A stretch of DNA of 64,000 nt, taken from the NCBI RefSeq assembly GCF_018224925.1, contig NZ_JAGTUF010000006.1:62001-126000 (forward strand), read 5' to 3'. The notes under the pieces are model-generated. The model was not told the DNA's origin, ran no database searches, and was given only the letters and a program-made list of their open reading frames with translations. Within the stretch, counting starts at the first letter, position 1; every line of letters starts with the position of its first letter. This DNA is from Magnetospirillum sulfuroxidans (GTDB taxonomy: Bacteria; Pseudomonadota; Alphaproteobacteria; Rhodospirillales; Magnetospirillaceae). Positions 2,119 to 26,305 of the stretch are shown one piece after another. The translations under genes were made by a program, and so were the position numbers.

Positions 2119-2450
2119 TCATTCCACCGCCTCGTAACGGATTTCGATGATTTCCAGCGTCTCGATGCCGCCGGGAATGCGCAATTGCACGGTGTCGCCC
2201 TCATAGGCTTTCATCAGGGCGCGGGCGATGGGGGCGATCCAGGAAATGCGCCCCTTTTCCAGGTTGGCCTCGTCGATGCCGACGATGGTCACCGTCTTTT
2301 CCTCGTTGCGGGAATTGGCATAGGTGATGGTCGCGCCAAAGAAGACCTGTTCGGTATTGGTCTGGGTTGTGGGGTCGACGACGCGGGCGGCCTCGATGCG
2401 CTTGGTCAGGAAGCGTAGGCGGCGGTCGATCTCCCGCAGGCGCTTCTTGC
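2119..2450 (-). pseudogene. greB: greB 3' fragment (host copy split by the island)
   Basis: Encodes the last 109 residues of GreB from KKRLREIDRR to the end (IEIRYEAVE), including the whole C-terminal FKBP-like domain with the GreA/GreB signature around VTIVGIDEANLEKGRISW. The first 76 residues are 23.6 kb away at 26079-26305, on the same strand. Joining them restores a 185-aa GreB with no missing residue. This half lacks the N-terminal coiled-coil tip acidic residues that stimulate RNA cleavage by polymerase, so it cannot work alone. An open frame continues upstream into the island to an ATG, but that leader is not GreB. Confidence 0.93.
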
Positions 2451-2456
2451 TGGCCG

Positions 2457-2466
2457 TTTTAACCCC
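2457..2466 (+). repeat. Left terminal inverted repeat of island (TTTTAACCCC)
   Basis: Lies 6 nt inside the left greB junction and matches TTTTCACCCC read inward from the right end at 9 of 10 positions. Likely part of the recombinase binding arm; assigned by sequence only. Confidence 0.5.
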
Positions 2467-2627
2467 AAGAACATACTCATCATTTAAAATCAATGAGTTA
2501 AATGGGTGGCCATAATTCGGCGATATACTCGTTAGACGACATTTTAATTTTCGGGCGCGCGGGCGACTGCGAAGTGTAAGACGGCGCGGCCAGCGCCGGC
2601 TCACTTCGCTGGCGACCGCGCGCAACC

Positions 2628-2966
2628 TCACTGGCGATTCGCGAGCGCCTCGATTGTTTTTTGAGCGACTTCAAGATCGCTTTCAGACAGTGTCCGCAGC
2701 GTGAGGACCACCCTGTGCTCCCGAGCAACGCGGCCCACATCCCGACCCAAATCTTCGTCGGCAAAGAGCTCCGCCAACCGCAAGCCAAGAGCAGAACACA
2801 GCGCCTGAAGCGTCTCGATCGCAGGCATGGTCTTCCCGCGTTCGATATTCGAGATTGTCTCGGGGGTGCGATTGATCCGCTCGGCGAGCTGCTCCTGGCT
2901 CAGGCCAGCGCTTTCGCGCCCCGCTCGTACCTTTGCCCCTAAAACAGATTTCAGATCGGTTGCCAT
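2628..2966 (-). CDS. Xre-family helix-turn-helix regulator (112 aa)
   Basis: Residues 8-65 form an Xre/HTH_3 domain: VRAGRESAGLSQEQLAERINRTPETISNIERGKTMPAIETLQALCSALG, followed by a helical C-terminal tail (about residues 80-112) that may mediate dimerisation. It is divergent from two small genes starting at 3062, with a candidate operator between them. It is the leftmost intact island gene and probably represses itself and the divergent pair. Confidence 0.9.
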   Translation of the reverse strand: MATDLKSVLGAKVRAGRESAGLSQEQLAERINRTPETISNIERGKTMPAIETLQALCSALGLRLAELFADEDLGRDVGRVAREHRVVLTLRTLSESDLEVAQKTIEALANRQ

Positions 2967-3034
2967 GAACCGAAGTGTCTCTTCGACTCACGTGCTTGAC
3001 CATCGGGAGTCGTTTCGCCTAATGAAGGTTATGG

Positions 3035-3049
3035 CGAAATCTGATTTCG
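3035..3049 (+). promoter_or_regulatory. Inverted repeat, candidate Xre operator
   Basis: CGAAATC-T-GATTTCG has perfect 7-nt arms and lies 12 nt upstream of the start at 3062, between the Xre gene and the divergent pair. Position and symmetry fit an operator for the neighbouring repressor; no direct evidence. Confidence 0.45.
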
Positions 3050-3061
3050 GATTGCGGGGTT

Positions 3062-3319
3062 ATGAGGACAGAGCTAACGCTTGACGGCGACATCGCCGCA
3101 GAAATTGCCGATTTCGCATTGGAGAGGGTTGGGCGTCAGGTACCTGGCTTCGGCCCAGCCGACGTAATTGCGCACCTGTGTGGGGCGACCGCTGGGATCC
3201 TGCTCGGGAGTTTACCACCGGACCAAGCCATCAAATCAACTGAGGGATGGCGCCTCCTCCTCATTGAAGCCATCAAGCAGTTGGCCGCTCATCCGAATGC
3301 CGACCAAATGGAGGGATAG
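3062..3319 (+). CDS. Hypothetical protein (85 aa), first of a two-gene set
   Basis: Soluble, mostly helical small protein starting MRTELTLDGDIAAEIADFALERVG, with a mildly hydrophobic centre (DVIAHLCGATAGILLG). No family recognised. It ends 3 nt before the next gene's start codon, so the two are likely co-translated. Divergent from the Xre regulator, whose target it probably is. Confidence 0.55.
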   Translation: MRTELTLDGDIAAEIADFALERVGRQVPGFGPADVIAHLCGATAGILLGSLPPDQAIKSTEGWRLLLIEAIKQLAAHPNADQMEG

Positions 3320-3322
3320 GCT

Positions 3323-3838
3323 TTGCCACGTTCGCTTCTGCCTCCCGATCTCACTGGCGATGGGCGAATTGCATACCAGGGACATTGGATTTCGGAGCAC
3401 CGCGATACTGAGGTATCCGGAGATGGCGGGATTCGAAAGTTTCGCGAGATCTGGGTGAGGGATCTATGTGGCGAGGAGCGTCGATGGGAGATGCATGACC
3501 GGCGGTTTGGCGCGCTTGAAGGGTATTCGATTGGCATCCTCGCATACCAGCCCGATGATGGGGAGGGGCTTCTCCTAGGCGTGGTCAATTACCACACCGG
3601 CGAGGCGCGACTGCTTCCAAGCAGGCGTTCCGGCCTCGGGTGGAAGGTCTGGCTCGGCTATTTCGCCCTGTTGCTCTTGGTAGAGGGCGGGGATCCCTGG
3701 CGAATGTACGCCTGGCTTGGGGGCGTGGTCCTTTTGACGGGAGCAACCGTATATTCAGCTCTTGGCGATGTCCGGCTCGCGGAAAGGGACCGCCGACGGC
3801 TTGCATTCCTTAAGGAACTCGGATGGGCAGGGAACTGA
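3323..3838 (+). CDS. Hypothetical protein with two C-terminal membrane segments (171 aa)
   Basis: Starts with TTG (MPRSLLPPDL) three bases after the preceding stop. Residues 1-105 are a soluble beta-rich part rich in charged and Trp residues (IWVRDLCGEERRWEMHDRRFG). Two adjacent hydrophobic helices follow (WKVWLGYFALLLLVEG and MYAWLGGVVLLTGATVYSAL, about residues 110-147), then a basic tail. A soluble sensor joined to a membrane hairpin and paired with a tiny partner resembles the layout of some phage-defence or toxin pairs, but this is layout only. Confidence 0.55.
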   Translation: MPRSLLPPDLTGDGRIAYQGHWISEHRDTEVSGDGGIRKFREIWVRDLCGEERRWEMHDRRFGALEGYSIGILAYQPDDGEGLLLGVVNYHTGEARLLPSRRSGLGWKVWLGYFALLLLVEGGDPWRMYAWLGGVVLLTGATVYSALGDVRLAERDRRRLAFLKELGWAGN

Positions 3839-3930
3839 TAATTCAAATTGAGGCCATAACCAAGCCTGGGACTTATTCCCGTGATATTCTCGGCCTAGGT
3901 TCGGCCATCTCCACGAGGTTCATGCTGGCG

Positions 3931-4155
3931 CTATAACCGCCCGTCCTGGGCTTTTCCTAACTCATCACTGGCCCAGATGTTCGCCCACAGCATGGGCTGC
4001 TTCTCGGTACCCAAGTCCATTCGACGGACAGTCCCCCAGGGCATTTCCTGCCTCTGACGATCCAAATTCAGGCGCACATCAGTCTTGCCCCTTGGGTGCC
4101 ATTGCCGGCCAGGGATCATTGTCGTTGTTCGCTGCTGCTGGCATTGCTGCCTCAA
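3931..4155 (-). CDS. Doubtful small ORF (74 aa)
   Basis: The C-terminal half (RQEMPWGTVRRMDLGTEKQPMLWANIWASDELGKAQ) has a protein-like composition, but the N-terminal part is Gln/Arg-rich and overlaps the 3' end of another minus-strand ORF. No ribosome site is seen. It may be the decayed end of a gene. Confidence 0.2.
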   Translation of the reverse strand: MRQQCQQQRTTTMIPGRQWHPRGKTDVRLNLDRQRQEMPWGTVRRMDLGTEKQPMLWANIWASDELGKAQDGRL

Positions 4156-4315
4156 TTCGGTCTAACGCAGCCTCCAGTAGATGGGGCGCATTAAGCGACG
4201 AAGGCCTCAGGTGTGCAAGTTGTCCATCAGAATCGCGGCGAATGACGCAGGCGGCCACTCCAAACGGTGCGGTCCACCCCCGGCTCTCCAAGATACGCAT
4301 GTACATTCTTATCAT
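4079..4315 (-). CDS. Possible small hypothetical protein (78 aa)
   Basis: Internal start MIRMYMRILESRGWTAPFGVAACVIRRD gives a compact, ordinary-looking protein ending AAANNDNDPWPAMAPKGQD. Longer versions add an Arg/Cys-rich leader and are less likely. No family recognised; isolated on its strand. Confidence 0.3.
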   Translation of the reverse strand: MIRMYMRILESRGWTAPFGVAACVIRRDSDGQLAHLRPSSLNAPHLLEAALDRIEAAMPAAANNDNDPWPAMAPKGQD

Positions 4316-4390
4316 GCGAGCCTCCAGGTCCGATAAATAGGCGCGCTTGCATCTGCGTCGCAATATGCAAAGCACATTCAGTATCAGCAC

Positions 4391-4929
4391 GGTAGTCAGG
4401 CGACAGCACCAACGTCAACCGTTAAATATTCGATTGGTTTATGTGGGTAAATTTAAGTGCATTCAGCATTACACATTTAGATTGTGCCTAATATTATTTA
4501 TTGAGCACTGTAATTTTCAGAAACCACTCCGCTCTGAATGCCCCTGGTTCAAACATTATGGCGCCGGGTCAGTGGCCGAAAAATTTCAGCCGATAGTGTT
4601 TTCCCCGATACCCATTGTCCAAAGCGCCCCCCGGTCATCCCCACAGCGGAATGTTCAGGGGCGGCATTTTTCTCCGGCACATCCATTGATATGCTGAACA
4701 TGGTGGCGAACTGGTGGCTGAAAATTTCCGTGCTACGTGAAATTTTCCTCGCAAAAACGCTGATCATCTCAATAATTCGACCAAATTTTCATCGCTAGGC
4801 CAGTGAAAATATATGTGTTGATCCGCCTTTCTACCTTTCATAGGCTTCCACGTATGGGATCAACCGACATCACAGAAACGACGGGAGCAGGTGAGCCTGG
4901 CTTAGCGCGGAATGAGAGGGGAAGGGTCA
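4391..4929. other. AT-rich intergenic stretch upstream of the phosphotransferase operon
   Basis: No convincing gene. The sequence is markedly AT-richer than the rest of the window, especially 4425-4530 and 4740-4820, and must contain the promoter of the five-gene operon beginning at 4930. A purine-rich ribosome site (GGGGAAGGG) precedes the ATG at 4930. I could not fix a -35/-10 pair with confidence. Confidence 0.5.
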
Positions 4930-6621
4930 ATGGACATCGCGGAAACCGTCAAACTCATACACAACAATGACCCACGGAGCCTGCACGTGCTCCGCGACGC
5001 CTTGCTCCCCTTGCCTTATCAGCTTGCCGATGTGTTCGTCTGCCGCGATAGATCGTCGTTCGACATTCGCTGGTACCAAGTTAAAGACACCAAAGGGTCG
5101 ATTAAGCATTTCGGTCGCTTGCACAAGGATAGTCAATGCAATCGAATTACTCCGGGAACGCCACCCTGGACACTGATGTATCGCGAAGGTGTATTTGAAG
5201 TTCTCGATGTCTGGGACCGGAACCACATTCTAGGAGGCAGCGACGATTACCTGGCAAAGCAGGATAACGCGTATGCTTTGTTAGAGAGGGCCTATCCGGA
5301 AATATTCATGCGGGACCGGTTGCACCGGAGGCTAGTACACGGCCTGAAGGATCTGTCGCTGTTCCGTATCCGGCGGACTATTGAGGAGAGGGAGTACACT
5401 ATTTGTTTTCGTTTTTTTAATAGGATCGACGACACCAGGGGTGACGCGGCCAGGGATGAGGCGACCAGAGGTGAAGCGGCCGAAAAGACCATTGCCCCGG
5501 ACATTACCGAGCGCGCCCTCGCGCTTCAGGAAACAGTGCTGTCCTCCATTCCCCATTTTCTGTCCTGGCCGACATCGCAGGAGTTCTCCGGCCTAAAGGC
5601 GCGTTGCGGCTTCATCCAGCGGAACATCCGCTTTCTCAGCTACGTCGGCAACCCGAACTGCATCTGGCTGTCCGGACCGGACCCGCTCGAAAGGGAATTT
5701 TGGGCGCGAGCCATCCACAATCATATGGCCACGCGGGGTACCGATGCCCCAAGGGATCCAATAGTTTCGCCACCCGATCCCGTGCCGTTCTTCGGTGATC
5801 CTGGAAGTACCTACCTAAAGTTTTCTGGAAATGATCCCGAAATGTTGAGGGGGACGCACCTAGATCGCGCGCTGAGCGACCCCAAAATGGCCACCATCTA
5901 TGTTGACGATTTCGACCGCGCCCCCGCACCTGCGCTGCTGGCTCTGCTCGACGCCGCCGTTGGACAGCCCGTGCGGAAAATCGATGGTACGTTCATCGAT
6001 CCAAATCGACTGACCATTATTCTTGGGTCCGGACCGCAGGCGACGGTAACGCTCACACAGAATATCGACCAAGATCAGCATCTATATATTGCCAGTCGAA
6101 AATTCTATCTGCCCAAGTTTCAGGAGCGGAGCGAAGAAGGGGTTCTCGATGCCGTCGATAACGCCTTCACGTGGGCCAAGGCGAAGGTCGGCGTCACGGT
6201 GCCGGATCTTGCTCTCGACGATACGTGGCGGAAAGACCTGGCGCAGGCGCTGCTCTCTCGCGAAGCCCCTGCAGTCTCGATGCGGGATGTCGTGCGTCAG
6301 CTAATGGATGCTTTGAAGCACCTCCCATCCGACACGACGGTTTTGCGGCGTCCTAGGACGCCGATCCCACCAGGCCTTCCAAATCCGCGTTCAGAAGAGG
6401 AAATAATCTGGGACTTCATCCAACTCATGATGAAGCGATTTGAGGAAATAAAGGCGAACGGGAACGGCGCCGCATCAATTAGAGGCCCCATGTCAAAACA
6501 GGCCGACCTCGCTTCTGTTATGATCATGAAAGAGATGAGAAGACGTGGCGATAATGAAAAAATTATTTCTACTACACTTGGCGTCGATATTGTCACTGTT
6601 AGGACAAAACTTAATATGTAA
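4930..6621 (+). CDS. Degenerate sigma-54-activator-like AAA protein (563 aa)
   Basis: Residues about 1-165 are an unrecognised N-terminal domain. A charged repetitive linker (about 167-185) leads to a region with the plan of a sigma-54 activator AAA domain: CIWLSGPDPLEREFWARAIHNH aligns with the usual GESGTGKE..ARAIH, but Walker A is lost (no GxxxxGK; Lys is Arg). A Walker B-like IYVDDFDRAP follows, then a conserved-looking LLALLDAAVG...IDPNRLTIILGSG. The GAFTGA loop that contacts sigma-54 is absent. The C-terminus (KIISTTLGVDIVTVRTKLNM) resembles a Fis-type helix-turn-helix. It is first in an operon with the phosphotransferase genes, 65 nt before the next. Likely a non-ATPase sensor or DNA-binding regulator; the function is inferred. 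The ATG at 4930 is preferred over one at 4912 because of its ribosome site. Confidence 0.6.
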   Translation: MDIAETVKLIHNNDPRSLHVLRDALLPLPYQLADVFVCRDRSSFDIRWYQVKDTKGSIKHFGRLHKDSQCNRITPGTPPWTLMYREGVFEVLDVWDRNHILGGSDDYLAKQDNAYALLERAYPEIFMRDRLHRRLVHGLKDLSLFRIRRTIEEREYTICFRFFNRIDDTRGDAARDEATRGEAAEKTIAPDITERALALQETVLSSIPHFLSWPTSQEFSGLKARCGFIQRNIRFLSYVGNPNCIWLSGPDPLEREFWARAIHNHMATRGTDAPRDPIVSPPDPVPFFGDPGSTYLKFSGNDPEMLRGTHLDRALSDPKMATIYVDDFDRAPAPALLALLDAAVGQPVRKIDGTFIDPNRLTIILGSGPQATVTLTQNIDQDQHLYIASRKFYLPKFQERSEEGVLDAVDNAFTWAKAKVGVTVPDLALDDTWRKDLAQALLSREAPAVSMRDVVRQLMDALKHLPSDTTVLRRPRTPIPPGLPNPRSEEEIIWDFIQLMMKRFEEIKANGNGAASIRGPMSKQADLASVMIMKEMRRRGDNEKIISTTLGVDIVTVRTKLNM

Positions 6622-6686
6622 TATGGCGGACGAATTAAGTGTAGCGAAGCGCGGTTGAGCGCAGGAACGGAGGCTAAGAAATCACC

Positions 6687-8393
6687 ATGCAGTACGAACA
6701 CGAGAGGTGGCTTTCCTGGAATCAGCCGGCGAATATCCTCATGATCACGCTTCCTCTCGAGGCTGGCGTCTACAGGGCAAAGGAGTTCTTTGGCCAAAAC
6801 TGGCCTCTGACAATACTTTATTTCGAAGGTGATCAAGTTGTCTGGTTCAATCGGTGGGAAGAACTGCGCTCTCTGGGTGAGAAAATCCTCGATTCCTGGC
6901 TCCTTCCCGGCGCCTCCGAGCAGTTCTTTACTGGCTTCGAGCAGGAATGCAAGACGATGCGACGGGCAGTCCAGGACATGGTGCAGTTGCTTGAGAGCAG
7001 CGATCCACCTCATGCAGTCTTGGCTGATCACTACCGGGCCTTCGTCGATAAATACCTTCGGTGGTATGCAATCGGCTGGTGTGCCGAGCCGGTCCAGTTC
7101 TGCGCTGAACGAATTCTAGTCCGCGAGTTGGAGCGCCTAGTGGCTTTGGGGCACATTGAGGGTGAGAAGGTCATAAGCGGGAAGATCCATCTATTCTCCC
7201 CCACCGCCATGACCTATCAGGCCAAGATGGAGATTTCGTTTGCTGCGTGCGTGGAGACCGTCCTCGCCGCCCTTCGTCGAGCCGGCTGGTCGATTGCCGA
7301 CGACATGCCATTTTCCAGGGAGGAGCCATTCATCACCTGGTCGGCAGTGCTCAATGATCCCATCTATGATGATGCACGCCGGATGTGCCAAGCACATGCG
7401 GCGGAGTTCTATTGGTCGCGCAACAACTATCTCAATACATGCAAGTTGACCGGTCCGGACGTCCTTGATGAGGTCGGCAAGGCGCTCAAGGACAGGCCCC
7501 CGCAAGCAATCCGGAAGGGAGTGGCCGACCTTGAGGGGATGTTTACCCGCGAGAACCCTTCCCGCCGGGAGCTGAAGCAAAATCTAGGCGCCTATCACCG
7601 GGCCATCGTCGATATCTTGGGCAGCAACGCCCTGCTGAAAGACCGCCGTAAGGAAGTTATCAGTAGGGTCAACCATGTCCTCACCCTGTTTCTGGAACGG
7701 ATCGCAGCAGACTTTAGCATCACCCTCGGGCAAGCGCAGCAGATGCTGTCGGCGGAGATTGAGGAGGTATTGTCGCAGGGCCGTATTTCCGAGGCGCTGT
7801 GCGAGACACTAACGATGCGGCGCGAGAAGGCGGTCGTCATCTGGTGCGAACACGACGTGGCCCCGATCGAATACACCTCCCTGCGGCGTCTGCGGGACTC
7901 TGGACAGGACCGATACCCGCCGTTGACGGAGTGGACCATGGGCGGACCGACGATCGTCGAGGGCGCGGCTGCGGCAAACGACATGCTGGCGGCTCTCAAC
8001 GGCAAGTTCGGCTTTGTTCTCGACCTGGAGAAGCGGGTGACCAGCAGTCGCATCAAGGGCGACTGTGTGTTCTTTAATCCCGGCGAGTTTGAGATCAAGG
8101 GAACCGCCCGCATCGTTCTTGATCCCAAAGTGCCGGGCAACTTCGAGAAAGGCGACGTGCTGATCGCCCCCTCGACGACACCCGACTACCTGGCCCTGAT
8201 GAAAAAGGCCGCGTGCATCGTGACCGACTGGGGTGGATGGACGTCACACGCGGCGCTGGTTGCTCGCGAATTCGGCAAGCCGTGCATCGTCGGCACCAAT
8301 TACGCGACCAAGATCTTCGCGGACGGGGACCAAGTCGCCGTCATCCTGCCGGATGGGATCATAGAGAAGTCACTTCTAGAAGAACCGGCTTAG
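6687..8393 (+). CDS. PEP-synthase-like phosphohistidine (swivelling) domain protein (568 aa)
   Basis: The C-terminal 90 residues are a PEP-utilising mobile domain: DVLIAPSTTPDYLALMKKAACIVTDWGGWTSHAALVAREFGKPCIVG, with the catalytic His in TSHAAL at about residue 520. In PEP synthase, pyruvate phosphate dikinase and rifampicin phosphotransferase this His carries phosphate between an ATP-grasp domain and the acceptor. Residues 1-450 are largely helical and not a PEP TIM barrel, so they probably bind an unknown acceptor. The ATP-grasp half is encoded by the next gene 15 nt downstream, giving a split enzyme with domain order opposite to rifampicin phosphotransferase. Substrate unknown. Confidence 0.75.
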   Translation: MQYEHERWLSWNQPANILMITLPLEAGVYRAKEFFGQNWPLTILYFEGDQVVWFNRWEELRSLGEKILDSWLLPGASEQFFTGFEQECKTMRRAVQDMVQLLESSDPPHAVLADHYRAFVDKYLRWYAIGWCAEPVQFCAERILVRELERLVALGHIEGEKVISGKIHLFSPTAMTYQAKMEISFAACVETVLAALRRAGWSIADDMPFSREEPFITWSAVLNDPIYDDARRMCQAHAAEFYWSRNNYLNTCKLTGPDVLDEVGKALKDRPPQAIRKGVADLEGMFTRENPSRRELKQNLGAYHRAIVDILGSNALLKDRRKEVISRVNHVLTLFLERIAADFSITLGQAQQMLSAEIEEVLSQGRISEALCETLTMRREKAVVIWCEHDVAPIEYTSLRRLRDSGQDRYPPLTEWTMGGPTIVEGAAAANDMLAALNGKFGFVLDLEKRVTSSRIKGDCVFFNPGEFEIKGTARIVLDPKVPGNFEKGDVLIAPSTTPDYLALMKKAACIVTDWGGWTSHAALVAREFGKPCIVGTNYATKIFADGDQVAVILPDGIIEKSLLEEPA

Positions 8394-8408
8394 TCAGGAG
8401 ACAGGACC

Positions 8409-9287
8409 ATGGACATCATTATGTGTGATGTGCCGCAGTTGGCCAGCCCCCTCGATGTAACGAGGATCGGCGGAAAGGCTCTGCACCTCTTCAAGCTCAT
8501 TGAGCATGGTTTTCCGGTTCCTGCGTTCTTTTCTCTGACGGTGGAGCACGCGAAGGAGATCGAACTCGAACAGGAGCGTATCCTTGCCGCATTCGACGCC
8601 TTGAACTCCCCGCGCGTGGCCGTGCGCAGTTCCGGTGTCGATGAGGATAACGCCCAAGCCTCGTACGCTGGCATGTTCGAGACGTGCCTCAATGTCTCGC
8701 GCGATACGCTGATTGCCAGCATCCACAAAATCTTCGAATCGAAAGATACCGAAAGGGTTGAGGGGTACCGGGCAGAGAAGGCGCCGCAGCACAGCCACCC
8801 CAGCTCCATGGGGATCGTGGTGCAGTGCCTCGTAAATAGCGATGTCAGCGGCGTTGCCCTGACCCAATTCAACACGCCGGCCGATGGTGCCGGGCTGTTT
8901 GCCGTTATCGAAACGTGCTGGGGACTGGGCGAGACCCTGGTGCAGGGGCTGGACACGCCGGAACGCTACATCATTGACCGCAGGCGGCTGAAGGGCGATG
9001 GCAACGATGGCGCGGCGATCCAGCGCAATCTCGGCAACCAGCTAACCATGCAGGTGGTTGCCCCTAAACACGGCGGGCACCCGGTCGTCAATGTACCTGT
9101 CCCAGTCCATATGCGGCTACGTCGCCGTCTGAGCACGCAGCAGGTCTCGATGGTTACGCTTATGGCGTGCTCTATCGAGGAAAAACTTTTCGGCGGCGAA
9201 CCTGCTGACATCGAATTCGCCCTAGCTAACGATGTGCTTTTTATCCTTCAGGCGCGCCGGCTAGCCAGCCGGGGAACGCCAGCCTGA
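8409..9287 (+). CDS. PEP/pyruvate-binding ATP-grasp domain protein (292 aa)
   Basis: A free-standing copy of the N-terminal PPDK/PEP-synthase ATP-binding domain. Motifs in order: IGGKALHLFKLIEHGFPVPAFF, RVAVRSSGVDEDNAQASYAGMFET, GIVVQCLVNSDVSGVALTQ, IETCWGLGETLVQGLDTPERY, and GEPADIEFALANDVLFILQARR. These include the Arg and acidic residues that bind ATP and metal in the family. It has no His domain, which is supplied by the preceding gene, so the two must act together as an ATP-dependent phosphotransferase. Preceded by a GGAG ribosome site. Confidence 0.88.
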   Translation: MDIIMCDVPQLASPLDVTRIGGKALHLFKLIEHGFPVPAFFSLTVEHAKEIELEQERILAAFDALNSPRVAVRSSGVDEDNAQASYAGMFETCLNVSRDTLIASIHKIFESKDTERVEGYRAEKAPQHSHPSSMGIVVQCLVNSDVSGVALTQFNTPADGAGLFAVIETCWGLGETLVQGLDTPERYIIDRRRLKGDGNDGAAIQRNLGNQLTMQVVAPKHGGHPVVNVPVPVHMRLRRRLSTQQVSMVTLMACSIEEKLFGGEPADIEFALANDVLFILQARRLASRGTPA

Positions 9288-9303
9288 ACCGAAAGATCAT
9301 GGG

Positions 9304-10215: not shown

Positions 10216-10234
10216 CATTCCAGGATGTCGCCCC

Positions 10235-11287: not shown

Positions 11288-11399
11288 CAATGCTTTGATA
11301 TGATCATCGCTATCTTCATCCCACCTGAAGTAGAATTTAGGGTGCGGGTTTAGTTTTGCGCTGCTTCTCTGCAGCGATGCCGGTTAGGGCACTTCCCGA

Positions 11400-11840: not shown

Positions 11841-11843
11841 CTT

Positions 11844-12560: not shown

Positions 12561-12605
12561 ATTGCTGCCGTGGAACTGGAAAGGTTAAACTGGCACACTG
12601 GCGGC

Positions 12606-13247: not shown

Positions 13248-13343
13248 GCCAAACCCAAAATCAGCGGCCTTCACCGGACGGATACGAATCAAGCTGCGAT
13301 ACCGCAACTGCCGCGAGTTGGTTGCCCCGCAAACGCATACCCG

Positions 13344-13389
13344 CTACTCTCTTCCAGAGTAGGCGCCCCGGCTGAAGTGTTCGGGCGCC
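13344..13389. terminator. Paired hairpins, probable bidirectional terminator
   Basis: CTACTCT-n5-AGAGTAG (13344-13362) overlaps GGCGCCC-n14-GGGCGCC (13362-13389), followed by ATTGTT. It lies between the convergent pRiA4b-family gene and vsr. Confidence 0.5.
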
Positions 13390-13452
13390 ATTGTTGATTC
13401 GTTCAAACGCTCGGAGTGTCTGGAATGCGGTCACGGGTGTACCGTGCCTAAT

Positions 13453-18076: not shown

Positions 18077-19949
18077 GCCGCTGAGCTACGAAGAGAAGGT
18101 CGTCAAGACGTTTCGCAAGACGGCTCTCCGTACCGTCCTCATGATCGACGACCAGTTCCCCACGTTTTCGGATTTGGCGCAAGCAGCGTGCAACATCGAT
18201 GAAAAGGTGTGTGGGCTGGCGAATGTGGACAAGCGTTTCACCGAACGCCAGCGCGCCCGGCGACTGTACGAAATGTTCCGCAAACACGATATGCCGTGCG
18301 ACATAGAGAACACCATCAACGATATCGAGACGAAGAGCGGCGTCGAACGCATCAGAAAAAGTGATCTTGTTGTCCTTGACTACAATCTTGACGGGTCAAC
18401 GGATGATAATAGGAAATCTGTCGGCCTGATCATGCGTCTCGCTGAGACCAGCCATTTCAATACTGTTGTGTTGTACACGGGGGCGCCCGACCTCGAACAG
18501 GTGTGGTTCGACGTCGCCCTTTTTCTGAAGGGCGGCTGGAAGGAACCCGATGACTTGTTGAGCGCCGACGCGCTCGACCTGTGGGAGAAGCTCACGGACG
18601 AGGAGGCCGTGTTTCCCGAGGTCAGCAACGAACTCGTGAAACGCTATCTGCTGGGCGAGGTGCGTGCCCCTACCCCCGAGAAGGATCCGATTACTGCCGA
18701 GTTAAAAGTTCTTGGTGTGGACAAGAACCACGCCGACGCCTTTATCGAAGCCTTGGTCCATCGCGCTGTCCGGGAGCGCCTTGCCGACAGGGTCTCCGCT
18801 GCGTCCGAAACCACCCGCCCGATCGCCGGCCGAAGCCAGAATGAAAGTCCCCGATGGTTACAGGCCGGAAACTGCTTCATCGCCATCATGGGGAAGCAGG
18901 CCATTGGGGCTGATGGCCTGCCATATGAGAACGACGATATCATCGGGTATCTGGACGCAGCGCTGACCGATTGGCGACCGAACCTCCTTCAGTTGGTGAT
19001 CTCGGAAATCCAGAACATGTTGGAGCTAGAATCGCTGGCGACCGACGAAATGCACCTGCTGAACCCCGAGATCCAAGCTGGGCTGTTCTATTATCTTCTG
19101 CAGCGCATCGAAGGGCTCCCGATCGCAGAGGATGGCGCTCCGTTCACCCCCGGAATTGAAGCGATCATCGATAGGCTGGTGGACAGCATTCGGCGGAAGA
19201 TCTCTGCGAACGAACTGGTGGCCAGTGGAGCAGCTCGCCTGCTGGCTGCGGAACTCAGGGACAAGGGCTGGCCACCTGCCGCAGAGAACGATCGTGCCAT
19301 CTTCGATTTCGCTTCCAAAATTGCCGGGCTGGAGACTTCCCCCGATGTGGGTGAGACAATTTTCAAACTGAATTCCTTCCTGAACACGGAAGATTTCGAG
19401 CGTGGGCACATCACGACGGGCACCATTATCCGGGTCGCCGAAAAAGGGCGTGAGGGCGATCACTGGATATGCCTTTCCCCGGCATGCGATATGGAGGATC
19501 GCGAGCCTTCCCCGAAGACCATCCAGTTTTGGATGAAGGATATCTTCCCAGTGCGCGTCTTTGTGATCGTACGCCTTGAAACAAAGATGGACCACATGAA
19601 GGTCCTAAAAAGAGCTACAGACGGGTTCACAATCTTTGTGGAGAATGCGGATGGAAAGCAGGCATTCTCTGTTTTCGTAGGTGGCTCGTCGCAACCATCG
19701 TACGAGTTCCTTTTCCCCGCAGAGGCGGGGCGTGTTATTCTGGACGATGCGGTTCCCTATCCCCAATTCAAGGCCTTTCGCTTGGGACGTCCTGCCACCC
19801 CTGAGAGGTTTTCTCAGGACGCCCTTACTGAAGTAACCTTCGAGGTTGTCGGTCAGGTGCGAGAACAGTACGCAAGCCGTTTTCTCCAAGTTGTCGGACA
19901 ACACCTTTCTCGCATTGGCGTAGATTATATCAATGCGCCTAAGGGGTAG
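18069..19949 (+). CDS. Large receiver-domain protein, partner of the GHKL kinase (626 aa)
   Basis: N-terminal receiver-like domain: acid pair in VLMIDDQ (Asp27/Asp28), candidate phospho-Asp104 in DLVVLDYNLDGS, and the Thr strand VVLYTGAPD. The span from first strand to Asp104 is about 75 residues, longer than in ordinary receivers, so an insertion is present. The remaining 450 residues have no recognised domain: mostly helical to about 400, then a beta-rich end with a Cys near LSPACDMED. No classic DNA-binding output domain. Its ATG lies inside the end of the GHKL gene. Probably the output or effector of the Vsr/Dcm-linked system (inference). Confidence 0.75.
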   Translation: MPEPLSYEEKVVKTFRKTALRTVLMIDDQFPTFSDLAQAACNIDEKVCGLANVDKRFTERQRARRLYEMFRKHDMPCDIENTINDIETKSGVERIRKSDLVVLDYNLDGSTDDNRKSVGLIMRLAETSHFNTVVLYTGAPDLEQVWFDVALFLKGGWKEPDDLLSADALDLWEKLTDEEAVFPEVSNELVKRYLLGEVRAPTPEKDPITAELKVLGVDKNHADAFIEALVHRAVRERLADRVSAASETTRPIAGRSQNESPRWLQAGNCFIAIMGKQAIGADGLPYENDDIIGYLDAALTDWRPNLLQLVISEIQNMLELESLATDEMHLLNPEIQAGLFYYLLQRIEGLPIAEDGAPFTPGIEAIIDRLVDSIRRKISANELVASGAARLLAAELRDKGWPPAAENDRAIFDFASKIAGLETSPDVGETIFKLNSFLNTEDFERGHITTGTIIRVAEKGREGDHWICLSPACDMEDREPSPKTIQFWMKDIFPVRVFVIVRLETKMDHMKVLKRATDGFTIFVENADGKQAFSVFVGGSSQPSYEFLFPAEAGRVILDDAVPYPQFKAFRLGRPATPERFSQDALTEVTFEVVGQVREQYASRFLQVVGQHLSRIGVDYINAPKG

Positions 19950-20014
19950 CCGATAGTGGTGTCGCTGCGCGATGGCCTGCGAAACCGTGCCCATGCGACT
20001 CGACATCCAGCGCC

Positions 20015-20692
20015 TTATTCGCGCGACCTTCGGCATTGAGTATTACGGACGTATTCAATTACAGCGCGGAGCGTGGGAACAAACCCAGCGGGACTGATCA
20101 TGGCGTTGCCGTTATAGAGCGCACCGCTCTCACCGATGGTCCATGCCTGATCATCAATCCAGTCGGCAGAAGCGAACCGTTCAAGCGGCCCGAGATTGAT
20201 GTCGCTTTTCCGAGGCGGGAGGATTTCGACTTCGAAGGGCGACGACTCGGCGCTGTGCGAGGGTTCCGGCTGCGGCGCCTGCAATTTGGCAAATCCCTGC
20301 CGCAAAGCTTGGATCTCAGCGCGCTGCGCTCGATTCTCGGCCAGCATCGCGTTGAGACGCGTGCGGATATCGAGGTCAGGAATGGACGCGATCGCTTCTT
20401 GCAGGGGCGTTAAGTGTTGGACGGGGCGATGATTGGTTGACGCGCCCCTTGCCAGCGCAAACGCTTCGATCAGGCGGCGGAAGTCCTCACCATTAGCGTT
20501 GCGAATGGTCTGGGTCTTGAGCACGTTCACGGCCTCGCACTCCCGGCCTACCGCGACTATGGTAAAGGCCTTCACTCCTCGGCTCGCCATCTGATTGAGG
20601 ATTTGGACGAGCGCTCGCACTGTGCCGCGCCGCCGTTCGTTCGAACGAGCCAAGACCTCTTCCAGCACGTGTTCGAAGCCGTTGTCATTCAT
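20015..20692 (-). CDS. gmtX: GmtX-like island accessory protein (225 aa)
   Basis: The N-terminal third (VLEEVLARSNERRRGTVRALVQILNQMASRGVKAFTIVAVGREC...KTQTIRNANGEDFRRLIEAFALARG) looks like a small DNA-binding fold and matches my memory of the gamma-mobile-trio protein GmtX, notably the QTIRN...G..+R.LI block. A coiled-coil-prone segment follows (MLAENRAQRAEIQALRQGFAKL). The start MNDNGFEH overlaps the greB-copy stop as ATGAATGA, so it is coupled to greB. Last gene of the recombination operon. The family assignment is from memory. Confidence 0.6.
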   Translation of the reverse strand: MNDNGFEHVLEEVLARSNERRRGTVRALVQILNQMASRGVKAFTIVAVGRECEAVNVLKTQTIRNANGEDFRRLIEAFALARGASTNHRPVQHLTPLQEAIASIPDLDIRTRLNAMLAENRAQRAEIQALRQGFAKLQAPQPEPSHSAESSPFEVEILPPRKSDINLGPLERFASADWIDDQAWTIGESGALYNGNAMISPAGFVPTLRAVIEYVRNTQCRRSRE

Positions 20693-21248
20693 CCACGTCG
20701 TTCGCCTCACCGTTACCGAGATACCGAATCTCCTCAACGACAATATCGCGACGACCGGCAGGTGTCCGGATGGCGACCGTGTCGCCGACTTCCGCCTTAA
20801 GGAGCGCTCGAGCGATTGGTGAGACCCAGGAGACCTTACCCCGGTCCATGTTGGCCTCATCAACTCCGACGATTGTGACGGTCGTCTCGGCACCGTCTTC
20901 CTCGGAATAGGTGACGGTTGCGCCGAAGAACACTCGCGAGCGATTGGTCTGGCGGGCCGGGTCAACGATTTCGGATCGCTCGATGCGCTTGCGCAGAAAC
21001 CTTACGCGCCTGTCAATCTCTCGAAGCCGCTTCTTACCATATAGGTAGTCACCGTTCTCCGATCGGTCCCCATTGCCAGCGGCCCATGAAACGATCTCCA
21101 CGATACGAGGCCGCTCGACCCGCCAGAGATTGTCCAACTCATCAACGAGAGCACGGTACCCCGCCGGCGTAACGTAGTTCTTCGAACCGGGCGCTAGACC
21201 CGCGGATCCCTCGTCATCATCTTCATCATCGCGAATCTGCTTTCCCAT
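20685..21248 (-). CDS. greB: Intact island-borne GreB (187 aa)
   Basis: Transcript cleavage factor: the N-terminal coiled coil has tip residues in GNGDRSENGDYLYGKKRLREIDRR (Asp and Glu of GDRSENGD stimulate RNA hydrolysis in backtracked polymerase), and the C-terminal FKBP-like domain has VTIVGVDEANMDRGKVSWVSPIARALL. It parallels the reconstructed 185-aa host GreB over the full length, with many differences, so it is a homologue rather than a recent duplicate. It sits between the gmtZ-like and gmtX-like genes, 39 nt after the former. Likely supplies the GreB lost when the element split the host gene. Confidence 0.95.
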   Translation of the reverse strand: MGKQIRDDEDDDEGSAGLAPGSKNYVTPAGYRALVDELDNLWRVERPRIVEIVSWAAGNGDRSENGDYLYGKKRLREIDRRVRFLRKRIERSEIVDPARQTNRSRVFFGATVTYSEEDGAETTVTIVGVDEANMDRGKVSWVSPIARALLKAEVGDTVAIRTPAGRRDIVVEEIRYLGNGEANDVDE

Positions 21249-21287
21249 AAGGCCCTCAACAACATGACTACCCAGCTCCGCAGTGGC

Positions 21288-24200
21288 TCACTCTACGGAC
21301 GAAAATTCGGGGGCGCCAATTTGACGCCTCTCTGCTCCGGTAGCAAGGCGGCGTGCGATCGTCTGATCCAGGAACGCATCCAACTCCTGCCGCAATGCTT
21401 CGGGAAGAAGGCCGGTTTGATCGCAGATATCCTTGATCATGGCCTCGCCCTCCATCAGGCGTATGGTGTTTCGGCGCCCGACCCGCATATCCAGCCATTC
21501 GCTCATTCGGTTGCCCACATAGGCGGAAAGCTCGTCATCGAGGTCAAGGAACCTGACGTCCAAGCCATGTCGCATGAGGACGCGATCATAGCGGCGAGCT
21601 CGAAAGTTACTCGCGGCTTCGGTCAAATTGCCACGGGCTGCGAGGGACGGATAGGCCACGGCAGATCGGCAAATCCGATCGGCAAGGTCCCACTCCGTGC
21701 TTTCCTCCAGCGCAGCTTCGACCGTGACGATATCCCCCACAACCAGGGCCAGGCCGGTTTCCTGTGCCTCCATTCGCCGCTTCGCGATCCCCCTGATCTG
21801 CTGCTCCAGCATTAGCAAGTTCGCCATCTCAAGGGTCAATTGGTTTTGCCTGGCCTCGATTTCTTGGATCTGGTGGGTGAGGGCTTCCCATTCGCGATAC
21901 CCTTGGAAAATTCGTTCTTCCTGCATAGCCGTTTGCCGTTCATCGTCCAGCGGGTGCAGTTTCTCCTCCAGGCGTTCCCGTTGACGCGTAAGGCCGGTCA
22001 TTTCGTAGCTGCGCACATTGAATTCGGTCTGCACACCCTCAAGCCATGCCTCGCCCGAAATGAAATACCGGCACCCTGCACAATTGGCGCGCCCACCAGG
22101 CACCGGCGTCGGCCGGTCCTCTGAGCTTTTTGCGTTGAGAGACGGTCCTCCTTGATGGCACCGACTAGCTCCGACGGGGCAGATCCCAGCTATCAACGGT
22201 ACAATGCTGCCGTTCGGGGCACCGTGGAAGGCCTGCAAGGCGGCGCCGCTGGCAGCATGAACCAGACTCTGCAACTCGCCAATTTCTTGGGCGCGAGCAG
22301 CTTCAATCCATTGCCTTTGGGCTGCGTCCCGAGATTTGCCATCAGCATCCATCATCACTTCCGCGATGTGCTCCTGGCTGTGCTTGATATAATACATGGT
22401 CATGACGACCGTCGCGTGACCGACAATCTTCATGATCACATCCGGGGCCACTTCACCGTGCTCAATGTAATGTGTAATCAACGTGACTCGAAGTGCGTGC
22501 AAATCATAGATGCTTGCGCAGGCATCGCCGCGGGCATTGCGATTGGCAACGAGCTTAACCGGCGCTCCATCCGGACCGACAATCCCAGCATCGCGAAGTC
22601 GGCGCTCCACCTCTTCGCAAAGTGCTAGCCAGAGTCCCTTAACCTTACCGTCACCGATCGGTTCTCCTCGACGCGCTGGGTCGGGAAAGGTTCGGTCGCG
22701 AAAAAGGAAGCAGTTCCGCATGCCGGTGAGCTGGGCGTCGTGCTTTCGGCCCTTAAATTCCTGCAGGTCGGTCCACTCAGTCGGCTTCGGAAGCGGATTG
22801 TATTTTGCCTGCCAATCTCGCAGGGCAATCAGTTCCTTCGCCAAATCGTCCGGCATCCACGGTGCCGTATAGCCCTTGTTCCACGATTCCTTGTTGATAT
22901 CGGCTGTCTTATTGGTGGTGAATTTCATAGTCAGAAACGGTCGGATCCGGCCTTCGACGATCTGAACCACGCCTTTCTGGGTGGGGGCGCCCGGGCTTTT
23001 ACGTCTTCCCCCCCGCGACAAGCTGAGCCTGTCTCCTCGCTCGGCACTCCGCAATGGCCCGTGGTTTTCCACCATTTTCATCAGGTCAAGATCGGGAATG
23101 AGCTCGTCCGCCTCGCCGGAATCGAGCACGCGAATCTGCATCGTTCGGGCTGGGAAACGCAATTTTGCGAACAGCGCTACCGCGCGGGCCGGCGCCCAAA
23201 CATATTCTCGGTCGCCAGAGGTCGGATCTTCCCAGAGGAACCAGTCTGGGCCAGACTTGCCAACAGCCCCAGGCATGCCAAAGGTTCCTTTTGGCCATGA
23301 CCAGTCATTTTCGGTCAAGGTTTCAATCATGATCTTGAGGATGTGAGGCGGAACCGCGTCGCGGCTACTTTCACCCAGGGACTTAAGGGGGTCGCCCTTC
23401 TTCGATATAGGATTCCTGATGCCGGGGCGAGGGCGCCGCTCACCCAATTGGGTCTCCTCGGAGAACCGCGAGGCAATCGCAAATTCAAAGAAATCAACGA
23501 TCAGATTATAATGCGATATGGGCGTCTTGTTGAAAAGGTTTGCATCGTATGTTTTATGCGATAGAAGGTCTTCTGGATTCCGTGGAATGCCTTTGTTTTC
23601 AATGAGGTATTTGAAGAAATATCTCATTGCTTGGATTCTGTTGGCGACGGAGTTTCGAGACTCCTTAATATACTCTGTCGCAATCTCAACCCATTCTAAA
23701 AGATCTTCACCCTCATTTTTCACCCAACTGAATTCTGTATCACGCTGATATGTATGGCGCGGCCAATAATCCGTAGAACGATGGCGCAATGGGCCATGCG
23801 CGTCTCCCTGTGCAGCAGTAATCGCAACGCCCAAAGTTGAAAATCTACCTTGCCTGCTGAATGTCATCAGGTTCAGTACATCTGGTACAAAATCGCCGAT
23901 AGCCTCAGAAAAACTGACTCGCACCAAAACATCTTCAAAATGCGCAAGCATTTGGGTCGCATACGGCTTTTTCTGCCCGAGCAACTTTAGGCATGCTCGG
24001 TCTACGGTATCGAGCGCCTTGGCGCCGGTAGCCCAATGAGCCCGGACGAATTCAGGGGCGCTCATGGGCATAACAAGAACGCCGGATCGCCAAAGTGCGA
24101 GCAAAAATTCTCTGATTCGCGCCTTATCATTTAAGTACCACGGCTTCGCCGCCTGCACCGATGCGGCCTTTTCCTCCCTACTCTTTCTGTTTGGCTGCCC

Positions 24201-24512
24201 CCAGTTCTCCCGGCCCGCCATAATAGCGTCGAGAGCCGCAACCGCGGTTTCGTGGGAAGGGCTGGCAAAGAATGGCGCGACAGAGGCGAGGAACACCGGC
24301 GATCGCGCGTTCGACTGCGAACGTGTCCATGACCTCTTGGTCGACAAAGCCGCCAACTCGTGGCCGAGGAGATCTTGGTTCCACCGGTTTTCCGGAAAGA
24401 GCAGGAATCGATCCTGATCGATGTTCACCGTAACGGTATTGCCGGTCAGATAGCTGACGATCTCCCGGTAATTTTCGTAATGCCAATGCCTGCCGCTCAT
24501 TTCAACAGGCAT
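21288..24512 (-). CDS. gmtZ: GmtZ-like large tyrosine recombinase (1074 aa)
   Basis: A phage-integrase catalytic core lies near residues 420-720: an Arg box candidate in KLRFPARTMQIRVLD, then HALRVTLITHYIEHGEVAPDVIMKIVGHATVVMTMYYIKHS with HxxR, GH and the Tyr nucleophile. After it comes a Cys-containing region (GICPVGASRCHQGG...GRANCAGCRYF), a possible zinc site, and a long coiled coil (RQRERLEEKLHPLDDERQ... to about residue 890). Far longer than ordinary integrases. It overlaps the upstream recombinase gene by 16 nt. The two-recombinase arrangement fits gamma-mobile-trio elements and recalls Tn554 TnpA/TnpB. Confidence 0.75.
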   Translation of the reverse strand: MPVEMSGRHWHYENYREIVSYLTGNTVTVNIDQDRFLLFPENRWNQDLLGHELAALSTKRSWTRSQSNARSPVFLASVAPFFASPSHETAVAALDAIMAGRENWGQPNRKSREEKAASVQAAKPWYLNDKARIREFLLALWRSGVLVMPMSAPEFVRAHWATGAKALDTVDRACLKLLGQKKPYATQMLAHFEDVLVRVSFSEAIGDFVPDVLNLMTFSRQGRFSTLGVAITAAQGDAHGPLRHRSTDYWPRHTYQRDTEFSWVKNEGEDLLEWVEIATEYIKESRNSVANRIQAMRYFFKYLIENKGIPRNPEDLLSHKTYDANLFNKTPISHYNLIVDFFEFAIASRFSEETQLGERRPRPGIRNPISKKGDPLKSLGESSRDAVPPHILKIMIETLTENDWSWPKGTFGMPGAVGKSGPDWFLWEDPTSGDREYVWAPARAVALFAKLRFPARTMQIRVLDSGEADELIPDLDLMKMVENHGPLRSAERGDRLSLSRGGRRKSPGAPTQKGVVQIVEGRIRPFLTMKFTTNKTADINKESWNKGYTAPWMPDDLAKELIALRDWQAKYNPLPKPTEWTDLQEFKGRKHDAQLTGMRNCFLFRDRTFPDPARRGEPIGDGKVKGLWLALCEEVERRLRDAGIVGPDGAPVKLVANRNARGDACASIYDLHALRVTLITHYIEHGEVAPDVIMKIVGHATVVMTMYYIKHSQEHIAEVMMDADGKSRDAAQRQWIEAARAQEIGELQSLVHAASGAALQAFHGAPNGSIVPLIAGICPVGASRCHQGGPSLNAKSSEDRPTPVPGGRANCAGCRYFISGEAWLEGVQTEFNVRSYEMTGLTRQRERLEEKLHPLDDERQTAMQEERIFQGYREWEALTHQIQEIEARQNQLTLEMANLLMLEQQIRGIAKRRMEAQETGLALVVGDIVTVEAALEESTEWDLADRICRSAVAYPSLAARGNLTEAASNFRARRYDRVLMRHGLDVRFLDLDDELSAYVGNRMSEWLDMRVGRRNTIRLMEGEAMIKDICDQTGLLPEALRQELDAFLDQTIARRLATGAERRQIGAPEFSSVE

Positions 24513-25885
24513 CCCAATTCTAGCTGATGCCTGGTGTGTTTTTCTGCAGCCTCCATCTCTTCCGCAATTTCCCCCAGCAAGGGTCCTTTATAGGTTTCCT
24601 GGGACGCTGGCGTACGGTGCCCCATCGCCACCTGAAGCGCTTTCGAAGAGACGCCTCGCTTCGCCGCACGCGATCCATAGGCGTGCCGATGTCCATGGGG
24701 CGTCGTCCCAAGGCGTTTCGCAGGAATCAGGCCGATGCGGCGAACGGCAGCGGCATGGACCTTCTCGAAGCCAGCCCTGGTCATTGGATCGCCAGCGGGA
24801 GTGACAAAAAGGTACGGATGGCGCGAGACTTTTGGTCTGGACTGGATGTAGAGAAGATAGAGCGACCAAAAAACGCGGTCGGCAGCTGCGTCCGACCAGA
24901 ACGTGCGCAGCGCGTTCCTGTGCGTCAACAACGGATTCTTGAAGCCGACCCGCCTGCGGCCTGTTGCCGCGGTCAACGGGGCGCGCCCGTAGACAAGCCG
25001 CAAGTATTCGTCGCGCCGGATCTGGCCTGTCGCGCCCGTCTTGGGATCGCGGTATTCAGCGTAGCCGTCACTTGGGTGATGGACCCAGGGGACGCAGCGA
25101 GTCGGATCGCTCGGATGAGGCTGCACATCCCCGATCCACATCTGCAATACCTCCGAAATCCTGCGTCCTCCAAAGTGCAGCAGTATCGTAATCAGTTGGT
25201 CGCGCAGGATGGTCCAGCGCAGATGTGGTGGCCTGGATGAGAAGCCGTCGCGGAGCAACGGCAGGATGGACTCTTCCGGGAACCGCTTGGTCTCGTTGGC
25301 CGGGTTTTCGTGATAAGCCGACTGCTTCCTCACCGTAATCTCGCGGGCAACTCGGGACTGCTCGTAAGCCCGACCTGCGGACCGCAAATGGGCGAACAGG
25401 CTGCTGTCCTTCCTCTTGGCCCATCCTCGCCAAAAAACGATCTGCTCCGAGAGCGACGCTTGCCGCTCCGGGTTCAGCGGACGAATGCCCCGACTTTCCG
25501 CCAGCCAATCGCCGAACGCTGTCACAGTCTGAAGAGACCGGCGCACTTCCGCTGCCGACTTGGGAAGCCAGAAGAGATCAGATGGGTCATCACCGTCCGG
25601 ACCGACTGTTCCCATGACCAGAGCATCGACCCAATGCTGCATGAACAGCGTGCGGCGCTCGAGCGGCAGATAATCCCGCCATCGAGCATCCATGAACTCG
25701 ATCAGAGACCCGATATGGCGTGCCTGCGATCGTTGGGCGCCGATGCCCAACCTGTGGCGGTAGTCCGACCACGTCGTCCAAGGAATCCCACCAGGGAGCA
25801 GGATGCTGACCACCGGCAGGCCGACAGCGTCCAAATGCTCTACCCGCCAATGCGCCCTGGACGATTCGATCAAGTTCATGGGCAT
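24497..25885 (-). CDS. gmtY: GmtY-like tyrosine recombinase (462 aa)
   Basis: The catalytic motifs are clear: Arg in LLHFGGRRISEVLQMWIGDV, then TPHGHRHAYGSRAAKRGVSSKALQVAMGHRTPASQETYKGP with HxxR, GH and Tyr. The N-terminal 200 residues would be the SAM-like core-binding arm. First gene of the element's recombination operon and the closest to the right end (177 nt from the greB 5' fragment stop), on the same strand as the interrupted greB, so host transcription can run into it. Gmt naming is from memory of the family. Confidence 0.78.
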   Translation of the reverse strand: MPMNLIESSRAHWRVEHLDAVGLPVVSILLPGGIPWTTWSDYRHRLGIGAQRSQARHIGSLIEFMDARWRDYLPLERRTLFMQHWVDALVMGTVGPDGDDPSDLFWLPKSAAEVRRSLQTVTAFGDWLAESRGIRPLNPERQASLSEQIVFWRGWAKRKDSSLFAHLRSAGRAYEQSRVAREITVRKQSAYHENPANETKRFPEESILPLLRDGFSSRPPHLRWTILRDQLITILLHFGGRRISEVLQMWIGDVQPHPSDPTRCVPWVHHPSDGYAEYRDPKTGATGQIRRDEYLRLVYGRAPLTAATGRRRVGFKNPLLTHRNALRTFWSDAAADRVFWSLYLLYIQSRPKVSRHPYLFVTPAGDPMTRAGFEKVHAAAVRRIGLIPAKRLGTTPHGHRHAYGSRAAKRGVSSKALQVAMGHRTPASQETYKGPLLGEIAEEMEAAEKHTRHQLELGCLLK

Positions 25886-26068
25886 ACATTGAGGGAACTT
25901 TTGGGGAAGGCAAGCGCCAAGCCCCTACCTGCATCGCTCGACGGCGATCAACCGCTGTGCGTGGCAGGTTGAACGAGCTCGGTGATTTATCCCCAAAAGC
26001 GCCTCTTGGATAGAGCCCGGCAAAGGGATTTGGGATCGGCGAGTTTCGCCATTGTTAGATTGCTAGCG

Positions 26069-26078
26069 GGGGTGAAAA
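26069..26078 (-). repeat. Right terminal inverted repeat of island (TTTTCACCCC on minus)
   Basis: Abuts the last matching base of the greB 5' fragment. It differs from the left copy (TTTTAACCCC) at one position. The left copy lies 6 nt inside its border and this one at the border, so the arms are not perfectly symmetric. Confidence 0.5.
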
Positions 26079-26305
26079 CCATAGATGTAATCACCATTTT
26101 CCGAACGGTCGCCGTTGCCGGCCGCCCATGAAACCGTTTCCACCACCTTGGGGCGGTCGATCCGCACCAGCTGGTTCATCTCGTCACGCAGAGCCTGCAA
26201 GCCCTTGGGGGTGATGTAATTGGGCGAGCCCTTGGGAATCGGGCTGGCGCCTTCGGGCAGATCGTCGTCGTCGCCGTCGGATTCCTTGGTAAAAGCTTTA
26301 CTCAT
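26079..26305 (-). pseudogene. greB: greB 5' fragment (host copy split by the island)
   Basis: Encodes residues 1-76 of GreB (MSKAFTKESDGDDDD ... AAGNGDRSENGDYIYG), keeping the coiled-coil tip acids but no polymerase-binding C-terminal domain. The frame then runs four codons into the island (FHPR) to a TAG at 26063-26065. Its ATG overlaps the end of pabC by 8 nt, so it remains the last gene of a hydroxyacid dehydrogenase-pabB-pabC-greB operon and its promoter now reads into the island recombinase operon. Confidence 0.93.

Follow-up and report, generated by a model that had tools for sequence, protein, structure and literature searches.

A Gamma-Mobile-Trio type island that splits greB in Magnetospirillum sulfuroxidans carries a complete second greB

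The window analysed here, a stretch of 64,000 nucleotides from Magnetospirillum sulfuroxidans (G000:C57:62001-126000, within a 4.13 Mb draft genome), contains a greB gene that is split by an island of the Gamma-Mobile-Trio (GMT) type, and this island carries a complete, divergent greB of its own. From the sequences compared below we consider it very probable that greB is destroyed when the GMT recombinases insert the island at a constant position within it, and that the diverged greB carried along replaces the lost function.

The split greB and its island-borne counterpart

The native greB of the window is found on the minus strand in two parts, which are separated by 23.6 kb. The N-terminal part (26305..26079) comprises codons 1-76 less the last base, and its open reading frame (ORF) continues into the island to 26063, where it ends as FHPR-stop. 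The C-terminal part (2119..2449) consists of the last base of codon 76 and of codons 77-185, the latter at 2446..2119. Both parts are recognised as GreB by NCBIfam (profile positions 3-50 and 50-155 of 156). An earlier note on this DNA had described a same-strand split into residues 1-76 and 77-185 with no codon missing. The coordinates agree with this, as does the alignment of the joined halves with the intact protein of G021, which is free of gaps at the junction and shows no missing codon.

The insertion point lies between TATGG and CAAG. The uncut site is spelled GATTACATCTATGGCAAGAAG or a close variant in nine genus relatives, which are those printed across the site among 11 with a native greB, and the closest of the genus relatives carry GATTACATCTATGGCAAGAAGCGC across it. 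In the remaining two (L042, L045), blastn matches of both greB halves adjoin. When the window junctions (GATTACATCTATGG followed by TTTTCACCCC, and GGGGTTAAAACGGCCAG followed by CAAGAAGCGC) are compared with the uncut relatives, the insert is defined as 2450..26078 (23,629 bp), and zero greB bases have been lost. The precise junctions and the uninterrupted greB of related genomes, seen across the site or adjoining it, bear out the proposal that one insertion event broke the gene.

Both halves look undecayed. In the comparison with G021, the nonsynonymous and synonymous substitution rates (dN/dS) are 0.053/0.709 for the N-half and 0.068/0.365 for the C-half, with 0.072/0.385 between two intact relatives as a reference. 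The insertion into the window greB is therefore probably recent. A search of the whole window genome at E 0.001 yields the spare greB, the two native halves and one further match below the cut-off, which is taken for greA.

The complete spare greB (20685..21248, minus strand, 187 amino acids, 234.9 bits versus a cut-off of 188) is located between gmtZ and gmtX, in agreement with the earlier note, which had placed a complete divergent greB between the second recombinase and gmtX. A gap of 39 nt separates its start from the gmtZ stop, and at its other end 8 nt are shared with the start of gmtX (ATGAATGA); in view of this tight spacing it is probably translated together with both. Both GreA/GreB domains are present, and the motif GDRSENGDY is common to the spare and the native GreB, which are 58.9% identical. 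With dN/dS of 0.050/0.450 against its counterpart in G025, the spare is under purifying selection. An in-frame fusion to the native remainder does not occur: the N-part stops at FHPR-stop, and no GreB-like sequence was found in frame upstream of the C-part (the NCBIfam match begins at residue 61 of that ORF).

The spare is part of one same-strand cluster, gmtY-gmtZ-greB-gmtX, with short gaps or overlaps between the genes. The tyrosine recombinase gene gmtY (24497..25885, minus strand) matches NF040693 with 359.6 bits (cut-off 340), and gmtX (20015..20692, minus strand, scanned as 20015-20701) matches NF040692 with 99 bits (cut-off 40). The integrase gene gmtZ (21288..24512, minus strand, 1074 amino acids, Pfam Integrase_2) matches NF047926 over profile positions 1-783 of 784 with E 1.5e-173 and 578.7 bits, just below the cut-off of 600. 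By these profile matches the island is of the GMT type, with gmtY and gmtX over their cut-offs and gmtZ slightly under.

Islands in relatives and in distant hosts

Replacement by an island-borne greB, as suggested in the earlier note, receives its strongest support from a sister species. Thirteen genomes of the genus were compared: that of the window, 11 with a native greB (interrupted by an assembly gap in one of them) and G025, whose only greB is of the island type. A second greB above the cut-off was found in none of the 11, and none of the 13 combines the two greB genes of the window with the absence of an island. The greB of G024 is seemingly cut, but NN and a repeated stretch are present in it, so that this is an assembly gap.

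In G025, the sole greB is of the island type (90.7% identity to the window spare) and is found at the native place, behind pabB-like and aminotransferase genes (labels assigned by hand). It is preceded by a gmtZ tail (alignment score 70 versus a shuffle maximum of 25) and followed by a gmtX head (68 versus 31). Only the first 10 bp and the last ~14 bp of the native greB remain, and beyond this remnant 6.65 kb match G021 at 90.6%. At E 0.001, the only other match in this genome is greA-like. The simplest account would be that a GMT island once entered the greB of G025 and decayed around its intact spare, which was left as the sole copy, the native gene being gone.

A GmtY search of 55 genomes of the family returned mainly general tyrosine recombinases, with only one of the 55 over the cut-off. 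Because of this lack of specificity, GmtZ was used as probe. Hits were obtained in 2 of 385 class-level and 6 of 398 phylum-level genomes, both counts including the genome of the window. Scanning of genome contigs yielded 242 GmtZ relatives, the best 80 of which served as scan loci. Three of the 80 carry greB: Vibrio salinus DNF-1, Vibrio sp. SCSIO 43135 and Rheinheimera sp. 4Y26. In all three the native greB is in two pieces, with the C-part on another contig in Rheinheimera. A further genome, G554, which is one of the GmtZ-bearing genomes from the class and phylum searches, has its native greB split over 66.9 kb, with the GMT trio and a complete greB between the halves.

Among the matches listed for 100 genomes of G554's genus, a greB C-part from profile position 47 occurs in at least five (G554, G587, G845, G980, G995), and each of these has a complete second greB. 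More than two greB matches were found in seven of the 100, again among the matches listed, the additional two being G979, whose greB extends to a contig end, and G997. The gene order in G980 is gmtY-gmtZ-gmtX-greB, and in G995 the trio is spread over two contigs. In G587 and G845, the sequence read (80 kb and a 21 kb contig) contains a gmtX stub beside the intact spare, but neither gmtY nor gmtZ was found in it. The spares of G587 and G980 have dN/dS of 0.12/1.85 (YN00). A motif search of the DNA fetched did not find the N-parts of greB in G980, G995, G587 and G845. In G587, three very large proteins (1043, 1221 and 927 amino acids; L328:5629-15282) are encoded between the greB C-part and the surviving spare, and neither gmtY nor gmtZ occurs there.

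In total, ten genomes have a native greB that is cut or replaced, with an intact spare in each, and trio genes have been lost in three. We scored 89 GMT loci on both traits. Four of these have a native greB fragment at the gmtY end together with a complete greB inside, and in no locus is one trait present without the other (Fisher p 4e-7). The counts were entered by hand and reach ~10 kb past gmtZ; Rheinheimera, which has no gmtY on the contig, is excluded. For the scan alone, without the window and G554, the numbers are two of 72 with both traits and zero discordant. As cut and spare never occur apart in the 89 loci, chance is not a sensible alternative.

Insertion sites, further targets and origins

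The greB islands of the distant hosts, referred to here as the second lineage, use a constant site. The greB C-part begins at the same codon (TAY) in eight of eight genomes, and in all four with the N-part in view the cut is exactly between GAY or GAG and TAY. These four (V. salinus, Vibrio sp. SCSIO 43135, Rheinheimera sp. 4Y26 and G554) are cut between residues 47 and 48 in the numbering of the G554 spare. The window cut is 11 bp further along greB, and the gmtY end points towards the N-part in the window and towards the C-part in the second lineage.

In the window, the gmtY-side end (26039..26078, minus strand) begins with TTTTCACCCC, and the far end (2450..2494, plus strand) consists of 7 nt followed by TTTTAACCCC...CATACT, which is in part an inverted match of the other end. 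The gmtY ends of the second lineage start with TTA in eight of eight cases, and ACCCC occupies positions 6-10 in five of the eight and likewise in the window. CATACT is found ~20 nt inside the gmtY end in seven of eight, while in the window it occurs at the far end and not at the gmtY end. At the far ends, ~6-7 bp separate the junction from the start of a similar repeat, which is clear in three of the five ends seen (the window and both Vibrio). This offset suggests that a few bases of coupling sequence remain at the far end of the island. Integration of the Tn916 type leaves coupling sequences at the junction, a few bp that stem from neither the target nor the end repeat, and the GMT far ends resemble this as judged from the junction sequences only.

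A search for other genes entered in the same way matched, locus by locus, the sequence immediately upstream of gmtY against the interior. It used 72 of the 80 loci, 46 of them extended by 3.9-20 kb; the eight left out were four without a recognisable gmtY on the right strand and four with too little upstream DNA. Convincing copies of the entry gene were found in seven of the 72: two of greB, three of srkA and two of a nuclease gene. The kinase gene (NF008738), here called srkA, is cut in its HGDCHxGN motif, after HGDCH, in Rhodocyclaceae REEB364, Duganella sp. BJB480 and a third genome. In all three srkA islands with both ends in view, the truncated native 5' part is followed, after ~75-150 bp, by a complete copy in the same orientation. 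In Herminiimonas (L177), only the srkA N-part is seen, and the contig ends inside the island. In Pseudomonas sp. PB101 and Paraburkholderia sp. BCC1886, the gene that is cut, at or just after DRGH, encodes an Endonuclease_NS protein, and a complete copy of it is found next to gmtY; nuclease pieces are present in the related loci L122 and L123. Whole-gene replacement is one GMT habit among several. The earlier note had asked whether the order gmtY-gmtZ-greB-gmtX goes with a split greB elsewhere: the cut greB with a spare does recur, but the phenomenon is limited neither to greB (srkA, nuclease) nor to that order (G980).

Several candidates were rejected. In a first listing of seven, L143, L144 and L189 were sums of short weak pieces, which were gone when sum statistics were switched off and at least 30 amino acids were demanded, and L172, L185 and L200 held. 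L150 (59 amino acids, 37%) was set aside, so that seven of eight listed loci were kept. Also not taken were L084, with short weak pieces, L170, where a membrane-protein-like pair lies over 1.9 kb from gmtY, and L065, which has strong self-matches of GMT-like genes. The last (G020:C10:1-8809, from a genus relative) is a GMT-like cluster with repeats, in which DNA upstream of and after gmtY matches itself at 74-80% and two gmtX-like matches occur.

Two further neighbourhoods were observed in the scan. In L133, L139 and L173 (Pseudoalteromonas, Acinetobacter), gmtY starts 178-199 bp past the end of a glmS-like ORF (label assigned by hand); the neighbourhood downstream of glmS is the one used by Tn7. 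In a cluster of nine loci (L128, L131, L135, L138, L148, L159, L161, L165, L166), a long ORF of at least ~600 amino acids where printed lies directly upstream of gmtY. This helicase-like ORF may be a further conserved gene of this GMT lineage.

In a GmtZ tree of 97 rows (five short rows, L126, L131, L153, L183 and L234, were left out), the second-lineage greB islands are found in one clade of six rows that also includes L174 (on a 3.5 kb contig) and L229, while the window GmtZ stands apart on a long branch. Grouping all seven together is rejected by the approximately unbiased (AU) test (p 3.5e-45), for which 46 of the 97 rows were chosen by hand and a quick tree was used; L174 and L229, in which no greB is seen, were part of the tested group of seven. 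On this basis, a single origin of the greB habit was rejected. In a GreB tree of 34 rows (19 of 32 outside GreB loci were removed by a motif filter, and G024 was not entered), the window spare and G025 group with GreB of the window's own class (100/100). The remaining spares are placed among the GreBs of their own host groups, and the spares do not form one group. As the gene order also differs between the window and the second lineage, both trees point to greB entry with a greB spare having arisen at least twice, or to spares having been exchanged after a single origin.

Three groups of genes were annotated as cargo of the window island. HATPase/HEF_HK (972 amino acids) and Response_reg_2 (626 amino acids) proteins are encoded at 15158..19949 (plus strand). 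The region 13453..15161 contains a Vsr nicking endonuclease (minus strand) and a C5 cytosine methylase in two ORFs (plus strand, 13968-14516 and 14712-15161), and the methylase is probably broken. PEP-utiliser and PPDK_N proteins, an HD protein and a pyridoxal-phosphate-dependent enzyme follow at 6687..11287 (plus strand). Elsewhere in the window genome, a second, very divergent GMT-like gmtY/gmtZ pair occurs (L067, G000:C59:57018-61344), with no greB within the 19 kb read.

Explanation, alternatives and meaning

In the mechanism that we propose, GmtY and GmtZ would choose the insertion site in greB, entry of the island would destroy the gene, and the complete, diverged greB of the island would take over the lost GreB function, so that the insertion would cost the host little. 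The window spare would be expressed from the gmt operon, and the srkA copies possibly from the native promoter. The substitute gene can outlive the rest of the element.

Several observations weigh against this explanation or restrict its reach. The window GmtZ falls slightly short of its curated cut-off. No convincing entry-gene copy was found in 65 of the 72 loci, many far ends being out of reach, and 18 further GMT-like loci have neither greB nor srkA. A GMT on the Polaromonas plasmid pPNAP01 (L062:12402-21393) cuts an Endonuclease_NS-like gene with no complete copy in view; the same island has another endonuclease gene inside. L229 (G799) belongs to the clade of greB islands, but the 4.7 kb that follow its gmtZ show no greB. 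In V. salinus, spare and native gene share 94% identity, so that a recent local duplication explains this case as well as a foreign spare. G997 has a broken island-like greB (a stop and a frame change), with no trio gene found near it, beside a native greB that is unsplit and has a premature stop close to its end (L336, L337). This is perhaps a spare that decays where the native gene survives.

Among the alternatives, the one that survives best, improbable as we consider it, is a forced exchange of alleles: the island would remove the native GreB and install a variant of benefit to itself or to its defence genes, such as one that escapes recognition by phage factors directed at RNA polymerase. 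The spare has often diverged from its native counterpart (59%, 48% and 67% identity) and some of the cargo looks defence-like, but the close similarity in V. salinus speaks against such an exchange, and srkA and nuclease targets do not fit a single defence logic. Slightly less probable still is that the spare is an old target trapped by the element and kept as a source of attachment sites or as a decoy against further insertion, and not for its protein. The target codons are indeed present in the spare. However, its frame is intact throughout and under purifying selection, it persists in genomes that have lost recombinase genes (G025, G587, G845), and none of the ten genomes with a cut or replaced greB has a broken spare, the only broken one being that of G997 with its unsplit native greB.

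It is very improbable that greB is ordinary cargo of an element that landed in greB by coincidence. GMT cargo is varied and greB occurs on plasmids, too, but the association is complete in the 89 loci, extends over two distant GmtZ lineages and has counterparts at srkA and the nuclease gene. An assembly or duplication artefact can practically be dismissed: most genomes used are draft assemblies, but the window is on one 170 kb contig, the entire G554 case is on one 1.68 Mb contig, and the record of Vibrio sp. SCSIO 43135 is labelled a complete chromosome.

GMT islands have been described as a type with gmtY-gmtZ-gmtX (Mahata et al. 2024, Nat Microbiol, as presented in excerpts of PMC12039261 and PMC12715929). 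The window island shares this trio, the size of tens of kb and some defence-like cargo with the islands as described there, and differs from that description in having greB inside the trio cluster, in cutting greB and in carrying a complete spare. Three plasmid GMTs with annotation have gmtY-gmtZ-gmtX and no greB in the stretch shown. Entry of an integrase-bearing element into a conserved protein gene whose product is kept available is known from dusA-targeting elements such as IMEVchUSA3, which, in the part of PMC8409611 that covers them, provide a new promoter and a 5' end fused to the native remainder. The integrative and conjugative elements of the SXT/R391 family likewise use a tyrosine recombinase to enter a conserved protein gene, prfC, and restore it by a new promoter and N-terminus only (as outlined in parts of PMC2791158 and PMC8409611). 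The window greB, in contrast to both, stays cut and a separate whole gene is supplied. Restoration of a protein-coding target, which the earlier note had set apart from that of tRNA genes, is therefore not new in itself; the difference lies in the complete second gene. No earlier report of greB as an island target, or of a whole spare of a cut protein gene, was found among the titles and abstract openings listed, a comparison that did not cover the founding GMT paper, so that the novelty of a whole spare gene in place of a new gene end is provisional.

With more reserve, and at somewhat less than even probability in our view, cut-and-replace may be a general GMT strategy. Separate lineages would each enter one conserved gene (greB, srkA, Endonuclease_NS) at a conserved motif with a full spare. 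Once the native gene has decayed, the host would depend on the island copy, the spare would act as a hold on the host, and core genes would be lastingly replaced by foreign or diverged versions.

If the proposed mechanism is correct, a mobile element could enter a conserved core gene without harm to its host by bringing a complete replacement. G025, G587 and G845 would represent a subsequent stage, with the recombinase genes lost and no intact greB found other than the replacement. The pattern of a conserved gene in two halves with a full copy nearby offers a search rule for such islands and a warning for genome annotation, and it may allow a test of how recombinases track conserved codons. 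The mechanism would also open a direct path for the horizontal exchange of core transcription genes.

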